NCBI GenBank assembly: GCA_944393215.1
Contig: CALXZL010000010.1
Span: forward strand, 1 to 45,356
Origin: an uncultured Alphaproteobacteria bacterium
GTDB taxonomy: Bacteria; Pseudomonadota; Alphaproteobacteria; RF32; CAG-239
Length of the DNA stretch: 45,356 bases
Reading direction: 5' to 3'
Each line of letters starts with the position of its first letter. The first letter of the stretch is position 1. A program made the position numbers and the translations under genes. The notes under the pieces are model-generated. The model was not told where the DNA came from. It made no database searches and saw only the letters and a list, made by a program, of their open reading frames with translations. Positions 7,464-20,093 of the stretch are shown in pieces.

Positions 7464-7709
7464 TTATTCCGGTCTGACAAAAAGGCTTAATATAGCTTTT
7501 TTTCGTTTTTCGGAGAGACGTTTTTCTGCAATTTGCGTTTGTTTATTTTGAGCGTGAAGTTTAGCGATTCTGACAGTTTCTTTTAGACAATATTTATCAG
7601 CAGAAAGGGAGAGATTTTCAACTTCTTGAATATCGGGTAAAAAGTTATATTTACTTTCCAATTCGGTAAGTTTAGAATTACTGAGTTTGAGATATTTTTT
7701 TATGTTCAA
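7464..7709 (-). CDS. Small hypothetical protein downstream of the repressor
   Basis: An 81-residue basic, helix-rich protein that I do not recognise. It is read from TTG at 7709, which has AGAGGAG nine bases upstream, just after the repressor stop. An upstream GTG at 7742 would give 92 residues and overlap the repressor by 16 bases but has no good ribosome site. The C-terminal half is rich in Lys, Arg, Glu and Gln (about residues 45-75) and could form a coiled coil. It is cotranscribed with the repressor, which suggests a role in the same regulatory circuit; that is inference. Its stop directly abuts the stop of the HAD gene on the other strand. Confidence 0.6.
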   Translation of the reverse strand: MNIKKYLKLSNSKLTELESKYNFLPDIQEVENLSLSADKYCLKETVRIAKLHAQNKQTQIAEKRLSEKRKKAILSLFVRPE

Positions 7710-7726
7710 AATAAGATTCTCCTCTG

Positions 7727-8374
7727 CTATTGGCTGATCCACACGATTCGGTTAATAAGGCAGATATCTGCAATGGGAATATTCTCTTCCGCATGAGGTA
7801 GATTAATATCGGTAACAATCAATTTAGATGGTGTACGACGAACAAATTCTTTGATAATGACATCAGAATTATTAAGATAAATAATGACACGGTCGGCTTT
7901 TCTGATATCGGAGTTTTGGGAGGCCACCACAAGAGTTCCGTATCTGTAAAGGGGAGCATAGGCTTCGGAATCAATTTCAATGGCATAGAGCGCATCTCTA
8001 AAATCAGGGAAGAGGACTTTTCCCCATTTTTGCCAAACAGGGTTATTGTCAGAAATAAAGTCAGAAATTTCAGAAAGTTTGGCAAAGGGGATAGATCCGT
8101 TTTCTTTTTCTTCATTACCGGAGCTGAGAGCATAGAACTGTTCAAAAGACAGATTAAAAATTTCAAGTAAGCGGTTGATACTGTCTAGGGATGGCCAACG
8201 TTTTTTTCCGTCAGGGCGGATACGTTTGCTTTTATTAAAAGTTGTAGCATCCAAGCCGGCGAGTTTAGCCAAGCCGGAAGGAGAAAGACCGTGTTTTTTT
8301 GCTAACTTATCAACAGCATCCCAAACATTTTCATATTTCATTTTTTTTATGCTTTCAAAAGGTTTTTCAGGCAA
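7727..8374 (-). CDS. S24/LexA-fold helix-turn-helix repressor lacking the catalytic serine
   Basis: A 215-residue phage-repressor-type regulator. Residues about 18-75 form a Cro/C1-like helix-turn-helix domain (LSPSGLAKLAGLDATTFNKSK). Residues about 125-215 form the S24 fold, ending in NRIVWISQ, close to the usual alphaproteobacterial ending. In relatives the serine sits in a GDSMxP motif; aligning on PLYR places Ala138 there, while the partner Lys175 (IIKEF) is kept. Self-cleavage therefore looks lost. The TTG start at 8374 has AGGA upstream; an in-frame ATG at 8341 would remove 11 residues but has no ribosome site. It probably represses the divergent promoters next to it. Confidence 0.85.
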   Translation of the reverse strand: MPEKPFESIKKMKYENVWDAVDKLAKKHGLSPSGLAKLAGLDATTFNKSKRIRPDGKKRWPSLDSINRLLEIFNLSFEQFYALSSGNEEKENGSIPFAKLSEISDFISDNNPVWQKWGKVLFPDFRDALYAIEIDSEAYAPLYRYGTLVVASQNSDIRKADRVIIYLNNSDVIIKEFVRRTPSKLIVTDINLPHAEENIPIADICLINRIVWISQ

Positions 8375-8377
8375 TTT

Positions 8378-8434
8378 TTCCTATCATAACACAAAATAGA
8401 ATAGGAATCAATTCTTTTTGTGTTGAAATTCCTA
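8378..8434. promoter_or_regulatory. Candidate repressor operators: three TAGGAA half-sites
   Basis: TTCCTAT at 8378-8384, ATAGGAAT at 8401-8408 and ATTCCTA at 8428-8434 are related seven-base arms in alternating orientation. Adjacent pairs form inverted repeats with 16- and 19-base spacers. They overlap both divergent promoters, as expected of a lysogenic switch controlled by the adjacent regulator. The first also contains the repressor's ribosome site, so chance cannot be excluded. Confidence 0.45.
8383..8411 (-). promoter_or_regulatory. Leftward promoter of the repressor gene
   Basis: On the minus strand, TTGATT (complement of 8406-8411) and TATGAT (complement of 8383-8388) are separated by 17 bases, a good sigma-70 match. 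It points at the repressor, whose TTG start is at 8374, so the leader would be very short. Two TAGGAA-type half-sites overlap it. Confidence 0.6.
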
Positions 8435-8450
8435 CAACCTTATGTATAAA
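8423..8450 (+). promoter_or_regulatory. Rightward promoter of the early phage-module genes
   Basis: TTGAAA (8423-8428) and TATAAA (8445-8450) are separated by 16 bases, and TG directly precedes the -10. The spacer contains half-site ATTCCTA, so repressor binding would block it. The first gene starts at 8510 after a leader of about 50 bases. Confidence 0.55.
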
Positions 8451-8509
8451 TCTTTATGGTTAATATTTAGTTAATTGCATAAAACAATTCAAGGGGGAGA
8501 AAAAAGGGG

Positions 8510-8836
8510 ATGAAGGATAATTTTGAACCGTTTGAAAATGCCGAAGAAGTCTGGTTTTGGTTCTGCACCTCATTGCAGGCACGCGGAGGACTACGTTCCA
8601 AAACGGATTATTGCGGAAAACCGAGATGTTGTGAAATTACGGATATATATAGGATTCTCAAAATAATGAAACAGCACAGACATATAAGCAACAGACATTT
8701 GAGAATAATGGTAGAGTGGGGAGAAAAACAAGAGTCTCCGTGGTATGATCGCCGCGCCAAAAGAAGCGAGGTTCGGTTGTGGGAAGAAGGGATAAAAAAT
8801 TTTGAAGTTTATTTGCGATATTATAAAATATTGTAG
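8510..8836 (+). CDS. Conserved alphaproteobacterial protein of unknown function (FENAEE-WFWF family)
   Basis: A 108-residue protein with an aromatic N-terminus (FENAEEVWFWF), a central CEITDIYRILK segment and a C-terminal RLWEEGIKNFE helix. I recall similar short proteins in many alphaproteobacteria, often near phage-like genes, but can name no function. It has no signal peptide or membrane segment. Four cysteines (two clustered near CGKPRCCE) might bind metal, which is speculation. It is the first gene from the rightward promoter and opposite the repressor, the place of an early regulatory gene. A GGGG stretch directly precedes the ATG, with a stronger GGGGGAG about 12 bases upstream. Confidence 0.7.
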   Translation: MKDNFEPFENAEEVWFWFCTSLQARGGLRSKTDYCGKPRCCEITDIYRILKIMKQHRHISNRHLRIMVEWGEKQESPWYDRRAKRSEVRLWEEGIKNFEVYLRYYKIL

Positions 8837-8845
8837 AGGATAGCC

Positions 8846-9247
8846 ATGCAAAATCAGGGAATTATAAGCAGATATTATGCCAAGGGATATGTTGTCTTTG
8901 AAGATAATACAACTCTTTGGTGGTTAAAATTTTTAAAAAAAGGGTTCAGACACTGTTATATAATAATTTGTCTGTCAAAAAGTAAGGATATATGGCTGGA
9001 ACTAAATCCTATGTCCAACCAAGTTTACATATTTGAACACGAATCAATGTTAAGGTTGGATTACCTCAATCATATAAAAAAGCATAAAAAAAGCAAAATA
9101 TTAGAAGTAGATTTTAAGCAAGCACCATTAAAATGTGCACCGTTGGGAATATTTACTTGTGTAGAATTTGTAAAAAGAATTATGGGAATACATAGGGTTA
9201 GCATAGTTACGCCATATCAGCTGTATAAATTTTTAATAAAAAATTAA
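8846..9247 (+). CDS. Phage-associated hypothetical protein, upstream of the late promoter
   Basis: A 133-residue protein with a recognisable but uncharacterised pattern: LKKGFRHCY near residue 30, an LELNP segment, and a C-terminal FTCVEFVKRIMGI followed by TPYQLYKFL. I recall this pattern from alphaproteobacterial phage-like clusters, without an assigned activity. The Cys and His in GFRHC and FTCVE hint at a papain-like or NlpC-like fold, but a full catalytic set cannot be shown. It starts nine bases after the previous gene. It lies just upstream of a promoter-terminator pair, the position held by the Q antiterminator in lambdoid phages; equivalence is only a hypothesis. Confidence 0.7.
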   Translation: MQNQGIISRYYAKGYVVFEDNTTLWWLKFLKKGFRHCYIIICLSKSKDIWLELNPMSNQVYIFEHESMLRLDYLNHIKKHKKSKILEVDFKQAPLKCAPLGIFTCVEFVKRIMGIHRVSIVTPYQLYKFLIKN

Positions 9248-9266
9248 AAATAGTAGGAAAAAAGTC

Positions 9267-9295
9267 TTGACAATGAATTTTTTTTAATATATAAA
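9267..9295 (+). promoter_or_regulatory. Strong promoter ahead of the late (packaging and structural) operon
   Basis: A consensus TTGACA (9267-9272), a 17-base spacer and TATAAA (9290-9295) predict a start near 9302. It is the best promoter in the module. Transcripts from it meet an intrinsic terminator after about 60 bases, giving a short leader RNA unless termination is overcome. Confidence 0.75.
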
Positions 9296-9338
9296 CATAA
9301 CATCACTTGCTGGTAGTGTATCTGAAACAAAATAAAGG

Positions 9339-9362
9339 GCTCCGATGACGGAGCTTTTTTTT
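9339..9362 (+). terminator. Promoter-proximal intrinsic terminator (attenuator)
   Basis: GCTCCG (9339-9344) pairs with CGGAGC (9349-9354) around the loop ATGA, followed by eight T. It lies 17 bases before the first late gene and about 40 bases after the predicted transcription start, so it would attenuate the whole late operon. Confidence 0.85.
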
Positions 9363-9378
9363 ATGGGAAACGGATAAA

Positions 9379-9690
9379 ATGCCGAGTAAAAAAATAAAAA
9401 CATTACAATCATTAAAAAATAATTTGAAAAAGACGTTACCGCAAAAAATATCGGAGGTTATAAAAAGTTATGAAAATTTTGCCGAACAACCGGCACCGGC
9501 GGATGCCAAAGGTTTTAGCGCACATCACAGCGCTTGCAAATCGGCAGTCGTCCATGCCGAAACCTTGTTAAAATTGGCTCGTTGGACCGAAGATGAACCG
9601 CTTCCGCCAACCGAGCGAGATGAAATTGACATAACATCTTTGTTGGAAGAAGCACATCATCAGGAGGAAGAAGATGAAGAAGAAAGCTGA
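9379..9690 (+). CDS. Small protein in the terminase small-subunit position
   Basis: A 103-residue hydrophilic protein with a basic N-terminus (MPSKKIKTLQSLKNNLKK), a central helical stretch (AHHSACKSAVVHAETLLKLARW) and a very acidic tail. Such proteins precede the large terminase in related phage clusters. By position it could be the DNA-recognising small terminase subunit, but no helix-turn-helix can be shown, so this is inference. It overlaps terL by 17 bases and is probably translationally coupled to it. It is the first gene after the attenuator. Confidence 0.6.
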   Translation: MPSKKIKTLQSLKNNLKKTLPQKISEVIKSYENFAEQPAPADAKGFSAHHSACKSAVVHAETLLKLARWTEDEPLPPTERDEIDITSLLEEAHHQEEEDEEES

Positions 9691-11185
9691 CTTAAATAAA
9701 AAAGTCAGCTTTTTTGATTTTGTATATGTTTGGATGCATTTGCAGGGTTTAAGTGTTCCCAAACACCAAAACAAGATGACGCATTGGCTTTCTGAATTGT
9801 TTGAAAGCAAAGAGAGCAGACAAGGTTTGTTAATGGCTTTTCGCAATTCGGGAAAATCCACGATTGTAGGTTTGTTTTGTGCATGGTTTTTATATTATAA
9901 GCCGGAAACCAGAATATTGGTTATGGCGGCAGATCATGCTTTGGCAAAGAAAATGGTTAGAAATGTCAAACGCATCATAGAGCAACATCCTTTGACCAAA
10001 GGTTTAAAACCGCAAAAGACGGATCAATGGGCATCGGGACAATTTACCATTAATCGTCCGCAAGAACTAAGAGATCCGTCCATGTTAGCAAAAGGTTTGG
10101 GTGCAAATATCACGGGTTTGCGCGCAGATTTGATAATATGTGATGATGTTGAAGTTCCCAAAAATTCAGATTCACCTGTCAAAAGAGCAGACATAAGGGA
10201 GAAGCTGGAAGAATTGGATTATATTTTAACCCCGGAAGGGATGCAGTTATATATAGGCACACCGCATACCTTCTATACCATTTATCAGGTTGAGTATGAT
10301 TCCAAGAAGCCGGAAACGGAACCGTTTTTGCTAGGTTTTAAAAAGCTTGAATTGCCGATTTTGGATAAAAACGGAAAATCAAACTGGAAGGAAAGGTTTA
10401 GTGAAGAAAAAATTGCTTCGATACGAGTTCGATCGGGAGAAAACAAATTTCTTTCCCAAATGATGCTGACACCGGTCAATTTTTCCGACAGCATATTAAA
10501 CCCGGAAAGTCTAAAGGCATATGAGGGAGAAATACAAATAATTTCTTCCAACGGGCGAGATTATTTAAAAATCGGGGAGAAGAAAATGTTGTCGGCATCT
10601 TGCTGGTGGGATCCGTCTTTTGCCGCATCAGGTGGAGACAATTCCGTAATTGCCTGTGTTTTTACGGATGAAGACGGACACTATTGGCTGCATGATTTGG
10701 AATATATAAAAATAGATGAGCATATTCGCGATAATGCAGCATCGGAACAATGTCAAAAGGTTGCCGCCTTTATAGAGAGGAATCATCTGAATGCGGTAAG
10801 AGTTGAAGCCAACGGCATCGGAAAATTTTTGCCGGGGATATTAAAGCAGGTTTTGGCACAAAAAAATTTGCGAGTTGCGGTATTGGAGATGTATTCAAGT
10901 TCAAACAAAGCCGAAAGAATAGTTTCGGCTTTTGAAGTATTATTGGCGGAACGCGCATTAAATGTGCACAAAAAAATATGGCAAACACCGTTTATTGAAG
11001 AAATGCGAGAATTTTCACCGGAAGGCAAAGGGCATGATGATGCATTGGATGCCGTTGCCGGATGTTTGAATTCCGAACCGGTTCGATTAACGGTAAGTTT
11101 CACAAAAGATGCACTGCCAAAATATAACAAATGGCAAGGGCGTTCCGAGCAATTTTCGGCACACACAACATTTGAATTAGAATAG
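9674..11185 (+). CDS. terL: Phage terminase, large subunit
   Basis: Packaging motor ATPase and nuclease that pumps DNA into the prohead. In 503 residues there is a Walker A-like AFRNSGKST with Lys61, a Walker B strand DLIICDDVE (152-160), and a C-terminal RNase-H-fold nuclease with Asp313 in WWDPSF and a GHDDALDA motif around Asp455. The FRNSGKS type resembles T7-like and other podoviral terminases. All motifs look intact. GGAGG lies upstream of the ATG, inside the preceding gene. The lysis genes follow directly, an unusual position between packaging and head genes. Confidence 0.92.
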   Translation: MKKKADLNKKVSFFDFVYVWMHLQGLSVPKHQNKMTHWLSELFESKESRQGLLMAFRNSGKSTIVGLFCAWFLYYKPETRILVMAADHALAKKMVRNVKRIIEQHPLTKGLKPQKTDQWASGQFTINRPQELRDPSMLAKGLGANITGLRADLIICDDVEVPKNSDSPVKRADIREKLEELDYILTPEGMQLYIGTPHTFYTIYQVEYDSKKPETEPFLLGFKKLELPILDKNGKSNWKERFSEEKIASIRVRSGENKFLSQMMLTPVNFSDSILNPESLKAYEGEIQIISSNGRDYLKIGEKKMLSASCWWDPSFAASGGDNSVIACVFTDEDGHYWLHDLEYIKIDEHIRDNAASEQCQKVAAFIERNHLNAVRVEANGIGKFLPGILKQVLAQKNLRVAVLEMYSSSNKAERIVSAFEVLLAERALNVHKKIWQTPFIEEMREFSPEGKGHDDALDAVAGCLNSEPVRLTVSFTKDALPKYNKWQGRSEQFSAHTTFELE

Positions 11186-11194
11186 GTGAAAATA

Positions 11195-11482
11195 ATGTTT
11201 AATGAAATAACCAACTGGATAGCCATGGTCGAGCTTCCGGTGTTTGCCGCATTGTTTCGATTGGTAAACCGTAACAAAAAAGAGGCGGATACGGGAATAG
11301 AACATTTGAAGGAAGCACATGATGCACATGTTTCAAATTTGAAAGATGCGCTTGCCGATTTCAAGCTTCACGTTGCCCGCAATTATGTTTCGGTCAATTA
11401 TCTGAAAGATGTGGAAAACAGATTAACCGACCATTTGTTGAGAATAGAAAAGAAATTAGACGGGGTAGGAAGAAATTCATGA
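11195..11482 (+). CDS. Small phage protein with a coiled-coil C-terminus
   Basis: A 95-residue protein of unknown function. The N-terminus has a short hydrophobic segment (ITNWIAMVELPVFAALFRLV). Residues from about 30 on are amphipathic and helical and contain a LADFKLHVARNYVSVNYLKDVE block with an ENRLTDHLLRIEKKLD ending. I recall this pattern beside lysis genes of proteobacterial phages. ATG at 11195 is preferred, with AGGTG seven bases upstream; GTG at 11186 has no ribosome site. It overlaps the endolysin by four bases. An accessory lysis or membrane role fits the place but is not proven. Confidence 0.6.
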   Translation: MFNEITNWIAMVELPVFAALFRLVNRNKKEADTGIEHLKEAHDAHVSNLKDALADFKLHVARNYVSVNYLKDVENRLTDHLLRIEKKLDGVGRNS

Positions 11483-11898
11483 CGGATTTAACAACGGATA
11501 TCTTAGCCAAAACCATATATGGAGAGGCACGAGGCGAACCGTTATCGGGACAAGAAGCGATAGCCTCGGTAATTATGAACAGAAAAACAATAAGCAAAAA
11601 GAAAGGAGGATATTGGTGGGGAAATAATATAGCGGAAATATGTCAAAAAGATAAGCAATTTTCCTGTTGGAATTTAGATGATCCCAATTATCGGGTATTG
11701 CTTCGTGTTGATGAAGGAAACCCGATATATGCCACTTGTAAGCGTATTGCCAAGAGGGCTTTATCAGGATTGCTGTCGGATAGAACTTACGGCGCAACGC
11801 ATTATCACAACAAACAGGTATGTCCCCGTTGGTCCATCGGGAAAATACCTTGTGCCGAAATCGGCAATCATGTCTTTTACAATGATGTGGAGGGCTAA
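11479..11898 (+). CDS. Endolysin, cell wall hydrolase of the SleB/CwlJ family
   Basis: A 139-residue peptidoglycan hydrolase of the Hydrolase_2 type. Hallmarks are YGEARGE with the likely catalytic Glu16, SVIMNRK, the FSCWN segment and GATHYHN near the end. The whole protein is one catalytic domain, as expected for a phage of a Gram-negative host. No signal peptide is seen, so release across the membrane would need the holin encoded next. It overlaps the preceding gene by four bases and touches the holin gene end to start. Confidence 0.88.
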   Translation: MTDLTTDILAKTIYGEARGEPLSGQEAIASVIMNRKTISKKKGGYWWGNNIAEICQKDKQFSCWNLDDPNYRVLLRVDEGNPIYATCKRIAKRALSGLLSDRTYGATHYHNKQVCPRWSIGKIPCAEIGNHVFYNDVEG

Positions 11899-12429
11899 AT
11901 GTTACTAAAAATATTAAGTAAGGTAGGCTTACCTTTTTTGATTAAATTGGTAAGTACGGGTTTGGAAGCAATAGGAGGTGATACGGCGCAAAAGGCAAAT
12001 GCCGCGCTGGGAGAAGTAAGTTTAGACATAGAAAAACAAAAAATATCGAGTGAAAAAATCACTGAAGTCAATCGGCATATGGAAAAGATGCAAGAGTTGG
12101 AAAATGAGTTGGATAACAACACGTTAAATCAGATACATCAGACCATACGTCAAGAAATGAACGCCGAAGACAAATTTGTTCGTTTTTGGCGCCCGGCATT
12201 TGGTTATTCCGTGGCACTTGCATGGCTGCTGACAATCGGAACCTTGTGTTATGTTGTTTTGGCAGATTATCCCAATGCGGAAGGAATAATCAATGCGCTG
12301 GTAGAAACCACATCACTGTGGAGTATCGCTCTGGGTGTGCTGGGTATTCAGGTTGTGAAAAGCGCACAAGAAAATAAAAAAAGAACCAATGACGGAGGAA
12401 TATCGAAAGTCATTAATAAAATAAGCTAA
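11899..12429 (+). CDS. Holin of the 3-TM type
   Basis: A 176-residue protein. After an amphipathic N-terminus come a charged helical linker and a FVRFWRPAFGYSVALAW-type block with hydrophobic segments around residues 100-120 and 135-155. This matches the 3-TM holin family, first described for release of gene transfer agents in alphaproteobacteria. It would open the inner membrane for the endolysin. It begins right after the endolysin stop (no gap), and a strong terminator follows its own stop. Confidence 0.8.
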   Translation: MLLKILSKVGLPFLIKLVSTGLEAIGGDTAQKANAALGEVSLDIEKQKISSEKITEVNRHMEKMQELENELDNNTLNQIHQTIRQEMNAEDKFVRFWRPAFGYSVALAWLLTIGTLCYVVLADYPNAEGIINALVETTSLWSIALGVLGIQVVKSAQENKKRTNDGGISKVINKIS

Positions 12430-12431
12430 CC

Positions 12432-12461
12432 GGTCCGAATAAAAGTTCGGACCTTTTTTTT
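12432..12461 (+). terminator. Internal intrinsic terminator between lysis and head genes
   Basis: GGTCCGAA (12432-12439) and TTCGGACC (12446-12453) form a perfect 8-bp stem with a six-base loop, followed by eight T. It stands inside the late operon, and no clear promoter is visible between it and the next gene at 12481. Confidence 0.9.
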
Positions 12462-12480
12462 ATAAAAGAAAGGAGAAAAC

Positions 12481-12675
12481 ATGGGAGGAGTATTTAGCGG
12501 AAGTCCGAAAACCAAGGTGGTTAAAGATACCTCTGCGGAAGATGAAGAAAAAGCAAGAAAAGAAGCTTTAGCCAGACAACGTCGAGGCTTGGAAAGTACA
12601 ATACATACTTCATATGCCGGGATTTTTGATCCGCAAAATCGCGATTTGAACCGAAAAAAATTATTGGGAGAATAA
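12481..12675 (+). CDS. Small phage protein before the portal
   Basis: A 64-residue protein with a glycine-rich start (MGGVFSGSPKTK), a charged middle and the ending RKKLLGE. Small proteins with the same kind of start and ending precede portal genes in related phage clusters. The function is unknown; a minor virion or assembly role is a guess. AGGAG lies upstream of the ATG, and the portal gene starts two bases after its stop. Confidence 0.65.
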   Translation: MGGVFSGSPKTKVVKDTSAEDEEKARKEALARQRRGLESTIHTSYAGIFDPQNRDLNRKKLLGE

Positions 12676-12677
12676 GT

Positions 12678-14213
12678 ATGGAAGATAAAATAGAAAAGCT
12701 TATCAAACGTTATCAAAAAGCTGTAGAAAGAAAACAGAACTGGGAGCCCCATTGGCAGGAATGTTATGAATATGCTTTTCCGCAAAGAGAAAATGCGTGC
12801 AGTACAATGTATCAAAATTCCGAAGGAAGCAAAAAAAATATTCATATATATGACGCCACGGCACCGGATGCGGTTGATCAGTTGGCATCATCATTGCTGG
12901 CGGAATTAACGCCGCCCTGGTCAAAATGGTTTGGATTAACAGCAGGTCCGGAGTTGTTGCCGGAAGAAGCCGCCCAGATAAGTGATACGTTGTCCAAAAC
13001 GGCAGATATCATGCTGCAACATTTTGAACATTCAAATTTTGCCGTTGAAATTCACCAGTGTTATTTAGATTTAATTACGGTAGGAACAGCATGTTTAATG
13101 TTTGAAGAAGCCCCGATCGGAGAAGCTTCGGCATTTAGATTTTATGCAGTTCCGTTAAGAGAAATAGCACTGGAAGAGAGTGCGGACGGAAAATTAGATA
13201 CAACTTTTCGCTGTTCTCAAGTCAGTATAGATGATATTCGCTTACGTTTTCCGGAAGCCGAACTAACCGATAATTGGCTTGAACAGGCAAAAAATCCTGA
13301 TTTTCGCCTGAGTTTGATAGAAGCGGTTATTCCGCAAAACGGCAAGTTTGGAGCTTCCGGATATGAGTATACGGCTTTTGTCTGGGATGAAAACAGCGGT
13401 GTTGAAGATAATGTGGTGTTGAAGGAAGGCATATTTTCTTCCTCTCCGTTTATCAATTTTCGTTGGTTGAAAGCTCCGGGAGAAATTTATGGTCGTTCAC
13501 CGGTAATGAAGGCTTTGCCGGATATTAAAACAGCAAATAAAGTAGTTGAATTGATATTAAAAAATGCCTCCATTTCGGTTACGGGAATTTGGCAGGCGGA
13601 TGATGACGGAATATTAAATCCCGCCAATATCAAATTAGTCCCCGGTGCCATCATTCCCAAAGCGGTTGGTTCCAAAGGGCTGACACCGCTAGAAGCACCC
13701 GGAAAATTTGATGTTTCGCAGCTGATTTTGGAAAATTTGCAAAAAAGTATCAATCATGCGTTGTTGGCAGACAGATTATCACAGGTTAATGCACCGAACA
13801 TGACCGCGACTGAAGTTTTGGAAAGGACGGCAGAAATTGCGCGCATTTTGGGAGCCAGTTTCGGACGTTTACAAACCGAATTGCTGACACCGTTAATAAA
13901 GAGAGCCTTTCTGATTTTGCGACGTCGCGGCGATATCATGAATTTTGACTTGGACGGTAAAATTGTCGATTTGCAATATAAATCACCGTTAGCCATGCTC
14001 AAAGCCCGAGAAGATGTCAATAATATCAGTCAGTGGGTAACATTGGTATCATCATTGGGGGCACTGGGAATGGGAGCCGTAAATGCCTTTGAAGCAGCCA
14101 AAACACTCGGAAAAATATTAAACGTTCCCGACAATTTAATTAATGAACAAATAATAGATGAAAATCTGTTGCAGGGATTAATCGGCGGAGGTGAAGAAAA
14201 TGCCGCCGTTTGA
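12678..14213 (+). CDS. Portal protein (T7-type head-tail connector)
   Basis: Forms the dodecameric portal through which DNA enters and leaves the head. The 511 residues match the podoviral head-to-tail connector family: an N-terminal KQNWEPHWQECYEYAFP block, IYDATAPDAVDQLASSLLAELTP, then the FFxxxWLK-like INFRWLKAPGEIYGRSPVMKALPDIK segment, and a late NMTATEVLERT block. The length is typical. Together with TerL it sets the podovirus assignment. It overlaps the next gene by 14 bases. Confidence 0.88.
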   Translation: MEDKIEKLIKRYQKAVERKQNWEPHWQECYEYAFPQRENACSTMYQNSEGSKKNIHIYDATAPDAVDQLASSLLAELTPPWSKWFGLTAGPELLPEEAAQISDTLSKTADIMLQHFEHSNFAVEIHQCYLDLITVGTACLMFEEAPIGEASAFRFYAVPLREIALEESADGKLDTTFRCSQVSIDDIRLRFPEAELTDNWLEQAKNPDFRLSLIEAVIPQNGKFGASGYEYTAFVWDENSGVEDNVVLKEGIFSSSPFINFRWLKAPGEIYGRSPVMKALPDIKTANKVVELILKNASISVTGIWQADDDGILNPANIKLVPGAIIPKAVGSKGLTPLEAPGKFDVSQLILENLQKSINHALLADRLSQVNAPNMTATEVLERTAEIARILGASFGRLQTELLTPLIKRAFLILRRRGDIMNFDLDGKIVDLQYKSPLAMLKAREDVNNISQWVTLVSSLGALGMGAVNAFEAAKTLGKILNVPDNLINEQIIDENLLQGLIGGGEENAAV

Positions 14214-14427
14214 AGATTATGAGATCGAACAAATGAGTGAAGAAGAAATAAAAAAAGCCTTTGTTCGATGTTTCATAAGCAAAGAGGGCAAAATTGTCCT
14301 CTCATATCTGCGTCGTCAAACCATCGAGAGAAGTTTGGGACCAGACGCGGAAGACCGCCATTTACGCGATTTGGAAGGGCAAAGAAGATTAGTTCGCCAA
14401 ATTGAGCGATTAAGTGGCATCAATTAA
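14200..14427 (+). CDS. Bbp19-like small phage protein
   Basis: A 75-residue protein with VLSYLRRQTIER and a GPDAEDRHLRDLEGQRRLVRQI segment. I associate this pattern with the Bbp19-type family of podoviral small proteins found between portal and scaffold; its exact role is unknown to me. ATG at 14200 has GGAGG eight bases upstream. The GTG at 14191 is part of that same ribosome site and so is unlikely as start. Confidence 0.7.
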   Translation: MPPFEDYEIEQMSEEEIKKAFVRCFISKEGKIVLSYLRRQTIERSLGPDAEDRHLRDLEGQRRLVRQIERLSGIN

Positions 14428-14450
14428 TTTTTTACATGAAAGGAAAATAA

Positions 14451-15161
14451 ATGCAGCCAAAAGCTAAAAGTGAAAATCTTTTGGAAACATCCGCTATTGC
14501 CGAAAAAAGCGGATATTCCAACAAACCGCAAGGATTACCGGAGCAATTCTGGGATGAACAAACCGGAGAAGTCAGACTGGAAGAGTTGATAGCCGCGTAT
14601 AATGATTTGGCAAGAAGAGATGACAATCTCATAGAGACCAATCTGCGCAACATGCCGCAAAATTATACACAATATCAAATCAAAAGTCCGTCACCGGTTT
14701 TGGAGGTGGATGAAGATTTGATGAAACGGTTTTATGAAAAAGGCTTTACCAACGACCAAGCACAGTTTGTCTATGATTTGGCAGGAGAAAGAGTTTTACC
14801 TGTGTTAGATGAAATGGCGGTCAATTTTGAAGCCGAAAGACAACTGGAAAAATTAGCCCGACACTTTGGCGGAAGAGAAAAATTCAACGAGATTTCTCGT
14901 TCGCTTTCCAACTGGGCAAAACAAAATGTCAATCCGGAAGTTTATGAAGCGCTGGGTTCTACGGCAGAGGGGGTTATTGCTCTTTATAACATGATGAGTT
15001 CATCCGAACCGTTATTGGGAAAAAATGAAGGAGACATGGCAAATCTGAGTGAAGCCGGACTTCGTAAAATGATGGAAGATCCGCGTTATTGGCGTGATAA
15101 GGATAGCGCCTATATCGCCAAAATCACCCGTGGTTTTGAAAAACTTTATCCTGAAAAATAA
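14451..15161 (+). CDS. Capsid assembly (scaffolding) protein
   Basis: A 236-residue acidic, helix-rich protein directly before the major capsid gene, the usual scaffold position in T7-like phages. Features resembling the family are GLPEQFWDEQTGEVRLEELI near the start and a C-terminal half with LARHFGGREKFNEISRSLSNWA, GVIALYNMMSS and an ending with MMEDPRYWRDKD and FVR-like repeats. The scaffold guides head assembly and is not kept in the mature capsid. AGGA lies upstream of the ATG. No protease domain is seen. Confidence 0.75.
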   Translation: MQPKAKSENLLETSAIAEKSGYSNKPQGLPEQFWDEQTGEVRLEELIAAYNDLARRDDNLIETNLRNMPQNYTQYQIKSPSPVLEVDEDLMKRFYEKGFTNDQAQFVYDLAGERVLPVLDEMAVNFEAERQLEKLARHFGGREKFNEISRSLSNWAKQNVNPEVYEALGSTAEGVIALYNMMSSSEPLLGKNEGDMANLSEAGLRKMMEDPRYWRDKDSAYIAKITRGFEKLYPEK

Positions 15162-15203
15162 ACGTAAAACATTAACTTTTTAGATGAAAAGGAAAATAAA
15201 AAC

Positions 15204-16028
15204 ATGTCAACAGAAGTAAGTAAATCCTTTATAAAAAATTTTGAAGCCGATGTTCATTTGGCATATCAACAAATGGGATCGAAATTAAGAAACGCCGTAC
15301 GATACAAAGGTAATATCGTCGGAGCCACCACCGTATTCCAAAAAGTAGGCAAAGGTATTGCCTCAGGCAAGGCACGTCATGGACTGGTTCCGGTAATGAG
15401 CATTGACCATACCCCGGTTGAGTGCGAATTGCTCGACTATTATGCCGGCGATTGGGTAGATGCATTAGATGAGCTCAAAATGAGCATTGATGAACGTCGT
15501 GTGGTAGCCAGTGCCGGAGCATATGCTTTGGGAAGAAAAACCGATGAATTGATTATTGAAGCTTTGAATAAAGCGCCGTCAGATAATGATGTCGGTGATT
15601 ATGCTCAAGTTTTGACTAAAGATACTATTTTAGACGCTTTTGCCAAATTGAACAGTAATGATGTTCCCGATGACGGGCAACGTTTCGGTATTGTCGGACC
15701 GTTGCAATGGAATGCCTTGTTGAATATTGATGAATTTTCAAATTCAGATTACGCAGGCGACAATTTGCCGTTTTTGAAGGGTACTGAAAGCCGCAAATGG
15801 CTGGGCATCAACTGGATTATGCACACCGGTTTGCCTCTTGACGGTACCAATCGCGATTGTTTCATTTTTCACAAAACTGCAGTCGGACATGCTTCCGGTC
15901 AAGATGTGAAGTCAGACATCACATGGCACGGAGATCATGCCGCACACTTCGTCAATAACATGATGAGTCAAGGTGCTTGCCTGATTGACGGAACAGGTGT
16001 TGTTCGCATCAAATGTAAAGAAGAATAA
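15204..16028 (+). CDS. Major capsid protein
   Basis: A 274-residue protein after the scaffold, matching a family of phage capsid proteins of podovirus-like elements: an N-terminal AYQQMGSKLRNAVRYKGNIVGATTVFQKVGKG block, VECELLDYYAGDWVDALDELK, and a C-terminal part with FGIVGPLQWNALL and GINWIMHTGLP. HK97-like folding is expected from family knowledge. AAGGAAA precedes the ATG. It shares its last base with an upstream in-frame start of the next gene, but the better start there is 24 bases on. Confidence 0.85.
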   Translation: MSTEVSKSFIKNFEADVHLAYQQMGSKLRNAVRYKGNIVGATTVFQKVGKGIASGKARHGLVPVMSIDHTPVECELLDYYAGDWVDALDELKMSIDERRVVASAGAYALGRKTDELIIEALNKAPSDNDVGDYAQVLTKDTILDAFAKLNSNDVPDDGQRFGIVGPLQWNALLNIDEFSNSDYAGDNLPFLKGTESRKWLGINWIMHTGLPLDGTNRDCFIFHKTAVGHASGQDVKSDITWHGDHAAHFVNNMMSQGACLIDGTGVVRIKCKEE

Positions 16029-16051
16029 TGAAAAAGAAAGGAATAAAAAAT

Positions 16052-16321
16052 ATGTCTTATAATGCAAAAAATTTCAGTGTAATGGCTTATGCCAATGGTT
16101 TTACTTTGTGGAATTATTCTACGGAAGATGATTTAAACACGGTCAAAGGGAGCGGTTACTTTAATGATATTGCACCTTTTGCACGTAAAGGAGATATGAT
16201 TTTAACTAATGCCGGCACGGCAAGTACGTTAGAACCGGCGGTTTTGTCCGTATCCTCGATTGAAGACGGTGAGGTCAGTGTAGCTGTTTTGGCAACACCG
16301 ACAGCAGCGGCAGCCGCGTAA
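16052..16321 (+). CDS. Small virion-associated protein after the capsid gene
   Basis: An 89-residue protein starting MSYNAKNFSVMAYANGFTLW, containing GYFNDIAPFARKGDMIL and ending in an alanine run. I recall similar proteins after capsid genes in alphaproteobacterial phage clusters. The place fits a head decoration protein, unproven. ATG at 16052 has AAAGGA at suitable distance; ATG at 16028, sharing its first base with the capsid stop, would add eight lysine-rich residues with no ribosome site. A terminator follows. Confidence 0.65.
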   Translation: MSYNAKNFSVMAYANGFTLWNYSTEDDLNTVKGSGYFNDIAPFARKGDMILTNAGTASTLEPAVLSVSSIEDGEVSVAVLATPTAAAAA

Positions 16322-16389
16322 CGGGAATAAATTACTCCTTTTATAGAAAATGGTTTTAAATAAAAAAATACACTAGTAGCAAATGATAG

Positions 16390-16424
16390 GGAGCCTGTGA
16401 AAAAAAAGCAGGCTCCTTTTTTTT
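16390..16424 (+). terminator. Internal intrinsic terminator between head and tail genes
   Basis: GGAGCCTG (16390-16397) and CAGGCTCC (16409-16416) form a perfect 8-bp stem with an 11-base loop, then eight T. It lies 15 bases before the tail tube gene and would stop most upstream transcription. I see no convincing promoter in 16322-16438. Confidence 0.9.
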
Positions 16425-16438
16425 GAAGGGAAAAATAT

Positions 16439-17008
16439 ATGAGTAACAGTAGCATCAATATTTGTTCGCAAGCGTTATTAAAAATAGGAGCTTCCAGTAT
16501 CACCAGTTTTGAAGACGGCACGGCAGAAGCAGAAATATCGGCTAACTTATATTCGCAAATACGAGATGCCTTATTATCGTCATATCCATGGAGCTTTGCC
16601 ATAATGCAGACAAAATTGGCACGCCTGGAGCAAACCCCATTGGCAGATTATCGTTATGCTTATTTACTTCCGTCAGATTTTTTGCGGGTTATATCGGCAG
16701 GAAACGGGAGCAGAGGAAGAGGAACGGAATATAAAATAGTCAAAGATTGTTTATACAGCAATCATCAGCAAATCAATTTAACATATATATATCGTCCGCT
16801 GGAAAATAATTTTCCGGCATATTTTTGTGAGGCATTAATAAACAAACTGGCATATGAATTTTGTTTACCATTAACCGAAAGTACAACCAGAGCAGAATTT
16901 TTAAGCAAAGTTGCAGAAGACAGTATCAATCGGGCGCGTTCGATTGATGCCCAGCAATCAACCCCGTCCAGATTTGAAGATTTCAGCCTTGTGGAGATAA
17001 GACAATGA
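16439..17008 (+). CDS. Tail tubular protein A (T7 gp11-like)
   Basis: A 189-residue protein that closes the portal and forms the upper tail ring in podoviruses. Family marks are an N-terminal ICSQALLKIGASSITSF block, a LLSSYPWSFA segment (the SYPWxF signature), YAYLLPSDFLRV, and a helical C-terminal part with EALINKLAYEFCLPLT. The length fits gp11 and its relatives. It overlaps the nozzle gene by four bases (ATGA). AAGGGA precedes the ATG. Confidence 0.85.
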   Translation: MSNSSINICSQALLKIGASSITSFEDGTAEAEISANLYSQIRDALLSSYPWSFAIMQTKLARLEQTPLADYRYAYLLPSDFLRVISAGNGSRGRGTEYKIVKDCLYSNHQQINLTYIYRPLENNFPAYFCEALINKLAYEFCLPLTESTTRAEFLSKVAEDSINRARSIDAQQSTPSRFEDFSLVEIRQ

Positions 17009-18903
17009 ATCAAATATGTGTCAAAACAAATTTTACGTCAGGACAGTTGTCAGATAAATTATATGGGCGCGGTGATTTAAGAATATATGAAAACGGTGCG
17101 GGAAAATTACAAAATGTCCAAATTCATCCGACCGGCGGCGTATCCAGAAGAAAAGGTTTAATGTATATAGATGAGATAGGAGAAGAGGGCAGGTTAATTT
17201 CATTTGAATTTAATACCGAACAAACCTATTTAATCTGTTTTTTGAATAAGAGTGCGAAGGTATATAAAAATAAAGAAGTTATTGCCACATTGGAGACACC
17301 GTGGACAACGGAGCAACTGCATCAAATAAATTGGACGCAAAGTGCCGATACCTTATTGATAGTACATCCGGATGTCCCGCCGCAGCAAATTAGCCGCAAT
17401 AATGATGAAGTATGGAAAATTTCGGCATGGTCGTTTTATCAAAAAGACGGGCAAGTTTTTTGTCCGTATTATAATTTTTATCAAAATAAAATAAAATTCA
17501 AACCGAGCGGAGCCAGCGGCAGCATCACAATAACAAGCGATACTAATATATTTACATCGGACTATGTTGGGATTCGGATAAAAATAAATGAGGGTGAAGC
17601 CATAATAAGAAGTGTCAGTGACAGCAAAAACTGCACGGCGGAAGTGAGTAAAAGATTAACAAGTACCACTGAAACCAATGAGTGGGAAGAACAAGCTTTT
17701 TCTGCATTGAGAGGATATCCAAATTCTGTAACGTTTCATCAAGACAGAATGGTTATAGGAGGTTCAAAAAGCTTACCGAACCATTTATGGCTGTCCAAAT
17801 CATCCGATTTGTTTAATTTTGACATCGGAACGGGCTTGGATGATGAATCAATCGATTTTGCCATATTGTCAGATCAGGTCAATGCCGTACTCAATGTTGT
17901 ATCAACAAGACATTTATTGGTTTTTACCACGGGGGCGGAGTGGATGGTCTCGGGAGAACCGTTAACACCAACCAGTATAACCCTAAATCGGCAAACAAAT
18001 ATCGGAACATATGGTAAATGCTCGCTGGCTCCGCAAAATGTAGACGGTGCCACATTATTTGTGTCACAAAACGGAAAGCAGTTAAGAGAATTTTTATATG
18101 CCGATGTAGAACAAGCTTATCAGGCAAAAGATTTAACCCTGCTTTCAAATGATATCATAAAAAATCCGATAGATTGCGTATATTTTCAAGGAGACAGCAT
18201 ATTATACATTATTTTGTCAGACGGCACGATCTCATGTTTAACCTCATATCGTACGGAAGAAGTTAATGCTTGGAGTAAAATGACCACACAGGGAAAATTT
18301 ATCTCTTGTGCTGTTATCGGAGATGAAATTTATTTCATCGTTAAAAGAGATGAAAAATATTTTTTGGAAATGTTAACGGAAGACATGTATGTAGATTGCG
18401 GGAGCATACAAACGTCAGATACGGCAAAAAAGAGCTGGAGCGGATTAGATTATTTGGAAGGCAAGGAAGTTTCTGTTGTCGGTGATGATTTTACAATCGG
18501 AGAAATAACGGTCGAAGACGGCAAGATAGAATTATCGGAGGCGGTAAAGCAAATCAAAGTCGGTTTGTCTTATGAACACATCATAGAACCGCTACCGTTA
18601 ATGTTAGATTCCGCCAAACCGTATCCGCCCAAAGCCTATCGCATGGTTTATGGCATTTTCCGAATTATCGGAACAAAATCGCTGTGTTTAGATTTTGGCA
18701 ACGGCTATTTTGAAGTACCGTTAAAAAAAATGTATCGCGACCAAATTTTAGATTCCCCGCCCAATGCCTATAGTGGGGATATTGAATTGCGTTCAATTGG
18801 TTGGATAAGAGAACCGCAAAAACCGATGTGGAGTATAAAAAGCAGTGTTCCGGATGCATTTGAATTATTGTCGGTTGCAACGGAAATAAAAACCAAAGAT
18901 TAA
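17005..18903 (+). CDS. Tail nozzle protein (tail tubular protein B-like)
   Basis: A 632-residue beta-rich protein. Family marks are FTSGQLSDKLYGRGDLRIYENGA at the start, GGVSRRKGLMYI, a FNTEQTYLICF strand, a DTLLIVHPDVPPQ segment, RGYPNSVTFHQDRMVIGGS and LVFTTGAEWMVSG. It is shorter than T7 gp12. It would form the tail end below tail tube A. No fibre-like C-terminal repeat is visible, and no fibre gene follows, so how a particle would recognise cells is open. Confidence 0.8.
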   Translation: MNQICVKTNFTSGQLSDKLYGRGDLRIYENGAGKLQNVQIHPTGGVSRRKGLMYIDEIGEEGRLISFEFNTEQTYLICFLNKSAKVYKNKEVIATLETPWTTEQLHQINWTQSADTLLIVHPDVPPQQISRNNDEVWKISAWSFYQKDGQVFCPYYNFYQNKIKFKPSGASGSITITSDTNIFTSDYVGIRIKINEGEAIIRSVSDSKNCTAEVSKRLTSTTETNEWEEQAFSALRGYPNSVTFHQDRMVIGGSKSLPNHLWLSKSSDLFNFDIGTGLDDESIDFAILSDQVNAVLNVVSTRHLLVFTTGAEWMVSGEPLTPTSITLNRQTNIGTYGKCSLAPQNVDGATLFVSQNGKQLREFLYADVEQAYQAKDLTLLSNDIIKNPIDCVYFQGDSILYIILSDGTISCLTSYRTEEVNAWSKMTTQGKFISCAVIGDEIYFIVKRDEKYFLEMLTEDMYVDCGSIQTSDTAKKSWSGLDYLEGKEVSVVGDDFTIGEITVEDGKIELSEAVKQIKVGLSYEHIIEPLPLMLDSAKPYPPKAYRMVYGIFRIIGTKSLCLDFGNGYFEVPLKKMYRDQILDSPPNAYSGDIELRSIGWIREPQKPMWSIKSSVPDAFELLSVATEIKTKD

Positions 18904-18918
18904 AGAAGGGAGAAATAA

Positions 18919-19287
18919 ATGGGAGGAATAGGTACAGCCATAACGGCAGGTTTGTCTGCGGTCAATTTGTTAAATGAGGCAAATGCCCAAAGCAAACAGT
19001 TAAAACAAATGCAGAAGGAATATGAATACAATCAAAAGAAGCGAAAAAATTTATTGGATGCACAGTTGGCAAGTCGCCGAGCCAGTTTGAGCTCAATGGG
19101 TTTGAGTTCAAGCAAATCAGCGCTGGCGGCGCAACAAAGAGAGCTAAAAGAAGGATATGACGACTTAGCCTATAATAATGATAATTTTGATTATAATTAT
19201 CAGCAAAAGTATCGAGAAAAAGAAAAGAATTTGACTTCGGGTATCTTAGATTCAATTTGGGATACCACGGGAAAAATCATTAAATAG
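18919..19287 (+). CDS. Small helical phage protein, possible internal virion protein
   Basis: A 122-residue protein with a glycine/alanine-rich hydrophobic start (MGGIGTAITAGLSAVNLL) and a long charged helical middle (about 25-95). The pattern resembles the small T7 gp14-like internal protein that inserts in the outer membrane during ejection, but the match is weak. The much larger partner proteins gp15 and gp16 of T7 are absent. GGGAG precedes the ATG. Confidence 0.5.
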   Translation: MGGIGTAITAGLSAVNLLNEANAQSKQLKQMQKEYEYNQKKRKNLLDAQLASRRASLSSMGLSSSKSALAAQQRELKEGYDDLAYNNDNFDYNYQQKYREKEKNLTSGILDSIWDTTGKIIK

Positions 19288-19296
19288 GAGAAAAAC

Positions 19297-19494
19297 ATGC
19301 CGAGAAGAAAAACAACCTATAAAGAAAAGAGACAAAAAGCCTATGAAAAAAATTTGCCATTAGGAGAACAACTGGATGCCATATTGAAAGCCTTTGACAT
19401 GGTTTTGCAAGAAGGCGGAGATTTGCCCTATGAGTTGATAGATGTGATTGAAAAATGGCAAGCGATTAAGTTCAAATATCCAAAACAATTATAA
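19297..19494 (+). CDS. Small hypothetical phage protein
   Basis: A 65-residue protein with a basic start (MPRRKTTYKEKRQKAYEK) and an acidic second half (LPLGEQLDAILKAFDMVLQEGGDLPYELIDVIEKW) ending IKFKYPK. A similar closing pattern occurs in phage proteins that follow tail genes, with unknown role. GGAG lies nine bases before the ATG. It is the last intact gene of the structural operon. Confidence 0.55.
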   Translation: MPRRKTTYKEKRQKAYEKNLPLGEQLDAILKAFDMVLQEGGDLPYELIDVIEKWQAIKFKYPKQL

Positions 19495-19505
19495 AGGAGA
19501 AAACA

Positions 19506-19756
19506 ATGAATAAAATAATAAAAGAATTAGGAAAATAGCATTAAAGAAGGTAAAAAATAAAAGTGTAAATAAAGCAATGGAAAAAGCTAGTGAAACTTAC
19601 AAAAAAATAAAAAATGAAGTCCTTGGAATTAAAACTCTTAATGTTGGCGAAAAAGAAACAATAAAGTGTTTAAAAAATTCAAGAAATAGCGTAAGTAAAT
19701 GTAAAAACATTGGCAATAAAGTGAGAAAAAACTATCATAAAAACAAGAATATATAA
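19506..19756 (+). pseudogene. Small basic protein gene with an apparent -1 frameshift
   Basis: A strong ribosome site (AAAGGAG) and ATG at 19506 open a frame that stops at TAG 19536 after ten codons. The -1 frame is open from there to TAA at 19756 and would add about 73 residues that are very rich in Lys and Asn. The break is at an A-run (19532-19535): one extra A would give one reading frame of about 83 residues. This could be a disabled gene, a programmed -1 frameshift or a sequencing error. ATG at 19577 alone would give 59 residues. I do not recognise the product. AT content is higher than in the tail genes. Confidence 0.5.
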
Positions 19757-19766
19757 ACAATATAAT

Positions 19767-19794
19767 AAAAGGCAATATTTTTATATTGCCTTTT
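19767..19794. terminator. Terminator closing the structural operon
   Basis: GGCAATAT (19771-19778) and ATATTGCC (19783-19790) pair around TTTT, extended by AAAA before and TTTT after. The symmetric tracts allow termination in both directions. It closes the phage operon. Confidence 0.85.
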
Positions 19795-19832
19795 ATTTAA
19801 TTTTTATTATCTTGAAACAAAAAGAGGATATC

Positions 19833-20093
19833 ATGAAGAAGATAATGTTTTTCATAATTGGTTTTTTTATTGTTCCAATAATTATGGGGGGCATAACGGC
19901 ATTTGTCTTCAATCCGCAAGACTATGAGTTATATGCAGGTTTTTGGGGAAGTGTTTATCTACTCATATATATAATATTCCCACTTCTGTATCGTCCGAAA
20001 ATCAAACAAAAAATGAGCAAACCGGCGTTTTATGTGCTGATATATGCCGTGTTGTTTATCCTCACCGGCTTAAGCTTAATCTATTTCAATTAA
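19833..20093 (+). CDS. Small three-helix membrane protein
   Basis: An 86-residue protein with hydrophobic segments at about residues 2-24, 35-55 and 63-85, separated by short charged loops. I do not recognise the family. ATG at 19833 has GAGG six bases upstream; TTG at 19812 would add seven residues. It follows the phage operon terminator and precedes the repeat region, so it may be an accessory (moron-type) gene of the phage module or an unrelated chromosomal gene. No promoter is obvious. Confidence 0.55.
   Translation: MKKIMFFIIGFFIVPIIMGGITAFVFNPQDYELYAGFWGSVYLLIYIIFPLLYRPKIKQKMSKPAFYVLIYAVLFILTGLSLIYFN

Follow-up and report, generated by a model that had tools for sequence, protein, structure and literature searches.

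A gene transfer agent-like module of T7-type particle genes in a family of uncultured Alphaproteobacteria

Results

A particle and lysis module beside a divergent repressor

This study concerns a 45,356-nucleotide stretch of contig CALXZL010000010.1 (assembly GCA_944393215.1; the window denotes this whole stretch) from an uncultured alphaproteobacterium with a 1.72 Mb genome, and a phage-derived module within it that most likely is gene transfer agent (GTA)-like. The module occupies positions 7464-19494 and comprises a divergent repressor with a small neighbour, m92, followed by 17 genes running the opposite way: p108, p133, p103, TerL, p98, endolysin, holin, p64, portal, p78, scaffold, capsid, p97, tail tube A, nozzle, p122 and p65 (Table 1). 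All named particle and lysis genes are open and share one orientation beside the repressor. Family matches bore out the initial annotation of the window, which had named terminase, portal, scaffold, capsid, tail tube A, nozzle, endolysin and holin genes under a repressor, with intact-looking motifs and a holin of a GTA-linked family; the ATPase and nuclease motifs of TerL are indeed present.

As that annotation had also stated, integrase, excisionase, replication, large ejection and fibre families gave no match among the module proteins scanned (p59 was outside the scan), and ARAGORN found no tRNA in the window. Its remark that a fibre gene was missing is true of the module locus but not of the genome, as described below. 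No long-tail family was matched among the module proteins, and Rfam gave no match at gathering score in the window. The right boundary, previously set at 19794, was moved to the end of p65 at 19494; conservation is lower for p59 and p93, which may fall outside the module. With regard to p103, the putative small terminase, family scans found no DNA-binding family and a search of solved structures returned nothing below E 0.35. Loss of this domain was considered as a mark of domestication and rejected, as the same short protein occurs in L018, L062 and L086; because homologues in other lineages also lack the domain, its absence is no sign of domestication. The protein p133 is a possible permuted NlpC/P60-like enzyme.

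Table 1. Features of the module and its control region in the window
Feature	Position	Strand	Remarks
m92, small open reading frame (ORF) beside repressor	7464..7742	-	no family over cut-off; similar ORF in same place in some family loci, 28-69%
Repressor	7727..8374	-	C-terminal half S24-like without catalytic Ser; N-terminal DNA-binding half by inspection
Operator-like imperfect inverted repeat	8402..8434	.	TAGGAATCAA..TTGAAATTCCTA; overlaps -35; strongly conserved in 25 family regions
Putative sigma70-type promoter	8423..8450	+	TTGAAA - 16 - TATAAA; by inspection
CtrA-type box	8460..8474	.	TTAA-N7-TTAA; 25/25 family regions, eight TTAA columns invariant
p108, conserved	8510..8836	+	possible late regulator, by position
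p133, conserved	8846..9247	+	invariant His36 and Cys105 in 10 rows
p103, putative small terminase	9379..9690	+	by position and size; overlaps TerL start; PHROG 31793 (function not annotated), 1.1e-37
Large terminase (TerL)	9674..11185	+	PHROG 38, 1.6e-82; ATPase and nuclease motifs present
p98	11186..11482	+	PHROG 29007, 5.3e-38
Endolysin	11479..11898	+	PHROG 938, 1.7e-20
Holin	11899..12429	+	PF11351 GTA_holin_3TM, 1.4e-9; length varies among relatives
p64	12481..12675	+	conserved
Portal (head-tail connector)	12678..14213	+	PF12236, 4.3e-128
p78, Bbp19-like	14191..14427	+	PF25181, 1.8e-11
T7-type scaffold	14451..15161	+	PF05396, 6.8e-17
Major capsid protein	15204..16028	+	PF19821, 3.8e-74
p97, possible head protein (by position)	16028..16321	+	PHROG 18004 (function not annotated), 3.4e-17
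Tail tubular protein A	16439..17008	+	PHROG 394, 1.1e-52
Tail nozzle	17005..18903	+	PHROG 376, 3.1e-144
p122, small; possible internal or ejection protein	18919..19287	+	present in 20/22 modules
p65, conserved	19297..19494	+	present in 18/22 modules; not in four of genus g40

A single chromosomal site in the host family

TerL was found in 27 of the 153 genomes of the host family; that of G160 (27% identity) was set aside as belonging to another phage, which leaves 26 carriers in eight genera. Gene order is identical in all 22 full-length modules (the window and L035-L055). The left neighbour is AsmA and/or HAD in 20 of the 22, the exceptions being G014, whose contig ends ~500 bp beyond the repressor, and G015, with neither gene in the 1.6 kb to the contig start. 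On the right side, the esterase gene follows on the module's contig in 20 as well, the exceptions being G006 (contig end) and G018 (esterase at a distance of 80-90 kb); in G086, it is separated from the module by several kb of intervening DNA. The same locus is present in the Azospirillum sp. CAG:239 record (L077), which makes a gut alphaproteobacterium the most likely host. The initial annotation had proposed this very test, the same module between the HAD and esterase genes across a family, and the site passes it on both sides in these proportions.

Stretches from 16 non-carriers were compared for the spacing of the two flanking genes, which are adjacent in 12. The gap is ~66-251 bp in ten (G130, G128, G026, G127, G007, G082, G084, G088, G100 and G072), 788 bp in G160 and 835 bp in G165. 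G013 and G109 (genus g8) have a lone repressor homologue (41-42%) by the esterase and no particle genes (L154:8391-9017, L155:6987-7625), and in G125 and G087 the esterase is present and HAD was not seen nearby. G003 and G125 have no module, yet keep the fibre gene in the host context of their carrier kin. Presence is partly patchy with respect to the count of carriers, which had been named as a refuting outcome, but the absences look like losses because of the adjacent HAD and esterase genes, the lone repressors and the fibre relics. On an rpoB tree of 27 genomes, module presence needs four changes, a count that alone cannot separate gain from loss.

Vertical inheritance, intactness and selection

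Trees of 14 module genes, five flank genes and rpoB were compared for 20 genomes from seven genera. Every split with at least 95% support in the rpoB tree (7/7) and in the flank tree (11/11) is present in the module tree, with no supported conflict; over all splits, the module tree shares 12/17 with rpoB and 16/17 with the flanks. Distance correlations are 0.86 (rpoB) and 0.95 (flanks), values reached in none of 2000 permutations. Repeated insertion at a hot spot was ruled out by the congruent trees and the identical gene order.

The genes are also intact. Counting 15 core genes in 22 genomes, with the more variable holin, p122 and p65 outside the count, 329 of 330 have at least 85% of the length in the window, and the single shortened gene is tail tube A in G093, far from the frequent pseudogenes that would have spoken for decay. 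The pooled ratio of nonsynonymous to synonymous substitution rates (dN/dS) is 0.029-0.076 over seven pairs and 15-16 module genes, well below 1 as anticipated for a domesticated element; the largest value for a single gene is 0.226, and the flanks give 0.014-0.077 (2-6 genes; dS reaches saturation in some cases). Purifying selection acts strongly on TerL, portal and scaffold. A pattern search of the 22 TerL proteins always recovered Walker B, the C-motif and the first nuclease Asp; it recovered Walker A from 21 proteins and the last nuclease motif from 19.

An unlinked fibre locus

A Pfam scan with T7 fibre N-termini gave unlinked matches in 14 of the 21 carriers tested and in the non-carrier G160, all but one of them below the curated cut-off. 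The fibre locus of the window's genome (G000:C2, ~116.7-119.2 kb) lies between host genes and encodes a 526-residue fibre, a 172-residue protein matching tail and tail-fibre families, and a 120-residue protein of a tail-assembly-chaperone family. A fibre profile, A2, built from 12 carriers, has matches at E <=1e-25 in 23/26 carriers and 2/127 other genomes (Fisher p = 6e-22; 11/14 against 2/127, p = 4e-12, without the 12 genomes used for building), and at a looser 1e-4 in 23/26 and 27/127 (p = 1e-10); the limit was picked after inspection of the list, and related genomes do not count as independent. The three unmatched carriers are assemblies of 59-86% completeness. The host context of the fibre locus and the genes downstream of the fibre differ between genera.

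Seventeen of the weaker A2 matches fall in genus g4, in 17 of its 18 genomes, all without the module (L233-L237). By inspection, the g4 fibre-like gene in L233 and L234 adjoins a short membrane ORF, a 747-762-residue ORF and an htpG-like gene, and it may mark another domesticated particle. In L235 and L236, a homologue (36-37%) of p93, a small membrane-protein-like ORF at 19812-20093 of the window, occurs ~2 kb away from the g4 fibre. In G018 and G163, the surroundings of the unlinked fibre include a small lipoprotein-like ORF (L218:10771-10998, L223:11341-11598), possibly a spanin, that shares 34-37% identity with an ORF following the lysis genes of L062.

A repressor without the self-cleavage serine and a CtrA-type box

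The repressor of the window matches PF00717 (Peptidase_S24) with E 5e-4 and 20.2 bits, below the 23.3 cut-off. An SOS-inducible S24 repressor has a Ser-Lys catalytic dyad; among 27 aligned family repressors, two of them lone, the serine is present in none and the lysine in 10, while the relative L087 keeps the serine. All 25 regulatory regions share the operator-like inverted repeat over a TTGAAA/TATAA-type promoter, followed downstream by TTAA-N7-TTAA, the CtrA motif as given in PMC9437464. Such a box arises by chance in 4.9% of single shuffled regions, and the 25 family regions are related and not independent; the window has two in all (8460 and 9233), and the L087 region has none. CtrA orthologues exceeded the curated cut-off in 7/7 family genomes tested, G000 included, and in 0/3 Enterousia-type genomes tested. 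No CtrA-type box was found upstream of the repressors of other families, a negative that is weak in their GC-rich DNA. Because the repressor lacks the self-cleavage serine and the box lies ~10 bp past the putative -10, the cell-cycle regulator CtrA, and not the SOS response, probably exerts control. CtrA might do so by repressing the operon or by driving the repressor.

A relative with a split terminase

A search of the species-genome collection with the capsid matched 503 of 524 stretches, of which the best 80 were retained. A second group comprises 57 loci (L088-L144), one from Candidatus Enterousia scatequi, in which the terminase is encoded by two separate genes; this arrangement was read in the fetched loci. 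In L126 (13741-18521), both halves match one T7 terminase model, at positions 2-190 and 334-500. They enclose a gene for a DnaB that exceeds the cut-offs of two models for cellular replicative helicases and falls short of the cut-off for the phage DnaB model. Beside this dnaB lie a helix-turn-helix regulator and one uncharacterised gene, and a biotin ligase gene precedes the endolysin. DnaB-type genes occur in 51/57 loci and biotin ligase in 45/57, some stretches being short, and dnaB lies between the terminase halves in 38 of the 39 loci holding both (L105 differs). No second DnaB was found in G177, G178 or G180. When DnaB and module trees were compared for 30 of 35 eligible loci, all 11 supported DnaB splits were present in the module tree, with no supported conflict and 15/27 splits shared overall. 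The capsid relative is present in 162 of 183 Enterousia-type genomes, which measure 0.6-1.1 Mb.

Relatives across the class and in viral collections

The capsid has matches in 90 of 385 sampled Alphaproteobacteria: identity is at least 50% in 59 of them (two partial), spread over 35 family codes, and 26-36% in the other 31. Repressor, portal and TerL occur together in 19 of 40 fetched class-wide stretches; the others have capsid and tail genes without repressor, portal and TerL, or the stretch ends. In a capsid and tail tree of 56 rows, obtained by a quick search on sequences of uneven letter make-up, 11 of 12 host groups form one clade each and f52 forms two. The 137 unassigned ORFs around the 19 loci matched 58 PHROG families, and no integrase is among the 25 of the 58 listed. 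Some single or paired ORFs do match DNA polymerase, helicase and methyltransferase families; they were taken for neighbouring host genes. The ORF caller used for these loci is crude and makes false frames in GC-rich DNA, and shared flanks there were not used. Taken together, the class-wide results suggest an old particle lineage, and class-wide domestication rests on less evidence than domestication in the window's family.

A relative is encoded in at least 594 IMG/VR viral stretches (594/600 among the matches listed). Fifteen chosen IMG/VR loci have the order of the window, the Enterousia order or a compact class order, some being cut by the contig end; none matched the integrase or primase of the G130 prophage described below, a test that other integrases would escape. 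Against named phages, the best TerL identity is 31.6% among the 20 rows listed. The best capsid match is 78%, in an unannotated 5-kb faecal contig, followed by 42% in a Pelagibacter phage.

Discussion

Comparison with known systems

Type I alphaproteobacterial GTAs are siphovirus-like. The module, in contrast, has T7-type portal, scaffold, capsid, tube and nozzle genes and is set apart by the families matched (capsid PF19821, portal PF12236); as the initial annotation had noted, a short-tailed particle would be distinct from the Rhodobacter type. It nevertheless resembles RcGTA and CcGTA (type I, Rhodogtaviriformidae) in being a phage-derived, vertically inherited cluster with extra loci elsewhere, and titles of papers place CtrA in the control of RcGTA. 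The Bartonella GTA (Bartogtaviriformidae), compared by its published description, is likewise alphaproteobacterial, with a ~14 kb main structural cluster that co-evolved with its hosts, and B. henselae particles are reported as tailless or short-tailed; it differs in an HK97-type capsid, in a link to run-off replication and in the long tails reported for B. grahamii.

A short-tailed GTA-like element has already been published in Faecalibacterium, FpGTA. According to that work (PMC12946183), it is also podovirus-like, from a gut host, organized in two operons and with the fibre unlinked, but its host is Gram-positive and its fibre and lysis genes stand together in operon II, whereas the lysis genes are in the main cluster here. 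The S06B particles of Bradyrhizobium japonicum, as described in PMC10127595, are short-tailed as well; their packaged reads are spread evenly over the host genome, and the authors compare them to a GTA, with the reservations that DNA yield was low and bacterial contamination possible, but they point to a ~60 kb predicted prophage with a GpA-type terminase. No paper on a T7-like GTA in Alphaproteobacteria was among the open-access literature matches listed.

A further comparison, within the family, is a T7-like prophage in G130 (L145-L146), with a capsid 64% identical and portal, tube and nozzle at 24-31%. Its capsid was set aside as that of another phage. Unlike the module, it has an integrase and a primase, fibre and lysis-type genes, and ORFs of 633-797 residues after the nozzle, one in a virion structural protein family. 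The prophage lies at another locus, and the HAD and esterase genes of G130 stand next to each other; a sister genome with the same phage plus integrase and replication genes at that site, which would have told against domestication, is not what this case offers.

Nature of the module

Six features of GTAs are listed in PMC9662315: proteins of tailed phages, packaging of mostly random host DNA, endogenization often at several loci, a head too small for the element's own genome, mostly vertical inheritance, and delivery of DNA to other cells. The module proteins derive from tailed phages, the element is fully endogenized at one site with an unlinked fibre locus, and it co-diversifies with its hosts in a mostly vertical manner. 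Bearing on packaging of the full genome, module genes and fibre lie at two unlinked loci. As these are three of the six, the module is termed GTA-like and not a GTA, and is a strong GTA candidate built on a T7-like phage.

That a short-tailed phage particle has been domesticated by the host lineage is, in our judgement, very nearly certain. The initial annotation had left open whether this was a domesticated particle or GTA, a decaying prophage or a satellite; site, trees, intactness and dN/dS now bear out the domesticated particle, and gene transfer is its best-fitting function. We infer GTA use because the element supplies what a GTA needs, namely intact genes for packaging motor, head, short tail, fibre and lysis and none for self-replication, and, given domestication, gene transfer is the probable function. 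Decay, to which the missing integrase, replication and large ejection families might point, is contradicted by the 329 of 330 near-full-length core genes, a dN/dS of 0.03-0.08 and conservation across families, and is scarcely credible. An active temperate prophage would have its own integrase and replication genes, which are not among the module families matched. A prophage that became vertically fixed while still mobile, or a satellite that borrows integration and replication functions, could account for the related capsids in viral contigs and in the integrase-bearing G130 prophage; it is nevertheless very improbable given one site, congruent trees in seven genera and an Enterousia-type relative interrupted by host genes. 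Satellites normally borrow a capsid rather than encode a full particle set, which is encoded here.

A domesticated particle might also serve another use, either as a DNA-filled killing particle against competitors, as PBSX-like particles are, or in lysis for public goods, with gene delivery incidental. All of the domestication evidence fits this equally well, the differing genes downstream of the fibre would suit competition, and the lysis genes are retained. However, DNA packaging seems to be needed, because the TerL motifs are largely conserved and purifying selection on TerL, portal and scaffold is strong, and we consider such a use unlikely. The best explanation overall, at roughly two chances in three, is a domesticated short-tailed particle that is host-controlled and acts as a GTA. 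Several points weigh against it. Particle, packaged DNA and transfer are predictions from the genes. Genuine phages with related capsids exist (the G130 prophage at 64%, the Pelagibacter phage at 42%), and the named family records are metagenome assemblies. The module is also dispensable, with no more than 26 carriers among the 153 genomes of the family. Most relatives elsewhere keep an SOS-type repressor: of 23 distinct class-wide repressors (L087 and L278 share coordinates and were counted once), 16 have both catalytic residues, five have lost the serine and two gave no call. Finally, the putative small terminase has no recognizable DNA-binding domain, although the same is true of homologues in other lineages.

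Proposed mechanism and significance

For the GTA-like particle, we propose that a host-controlled switch, probably acting via CtrA, would open the late promoter. TerL would then fill T7-type heads with host DNA, to which the nozzle and the fibre from its unlinked locus would be added. Holin and endolysin would lyse a few producing cells, and the particles would carry DNA to kin, as a GTA would. More broadly, Alphaproteobacteria may hold an ancient third type of GTA, short-tailed and T7-like, with its capsid in 35 sampled family codes, that was rewired in gut lineages: in the family of the window, CtrA control would have replaced SOS control, and Enterousia-type genomes would have come to encode the terminase motor and nuclease as separate genes flanking a host dnaB region. 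We regard this wider proposal as evenly balanced.

If true, alphaproteobacterial GTAs would include a widespread short-tailed, T7-like kind, near-universal in one gut-bacterial family with genomes of 0.6-1.1 Mb. The split terminase would allow packaging motor and nuclease to be studied as separate proteins. Uncultured gut bacteria would have a capsid route for gene flow, and in one family this flow would be tied to the cell-cycle regulator CtrA.

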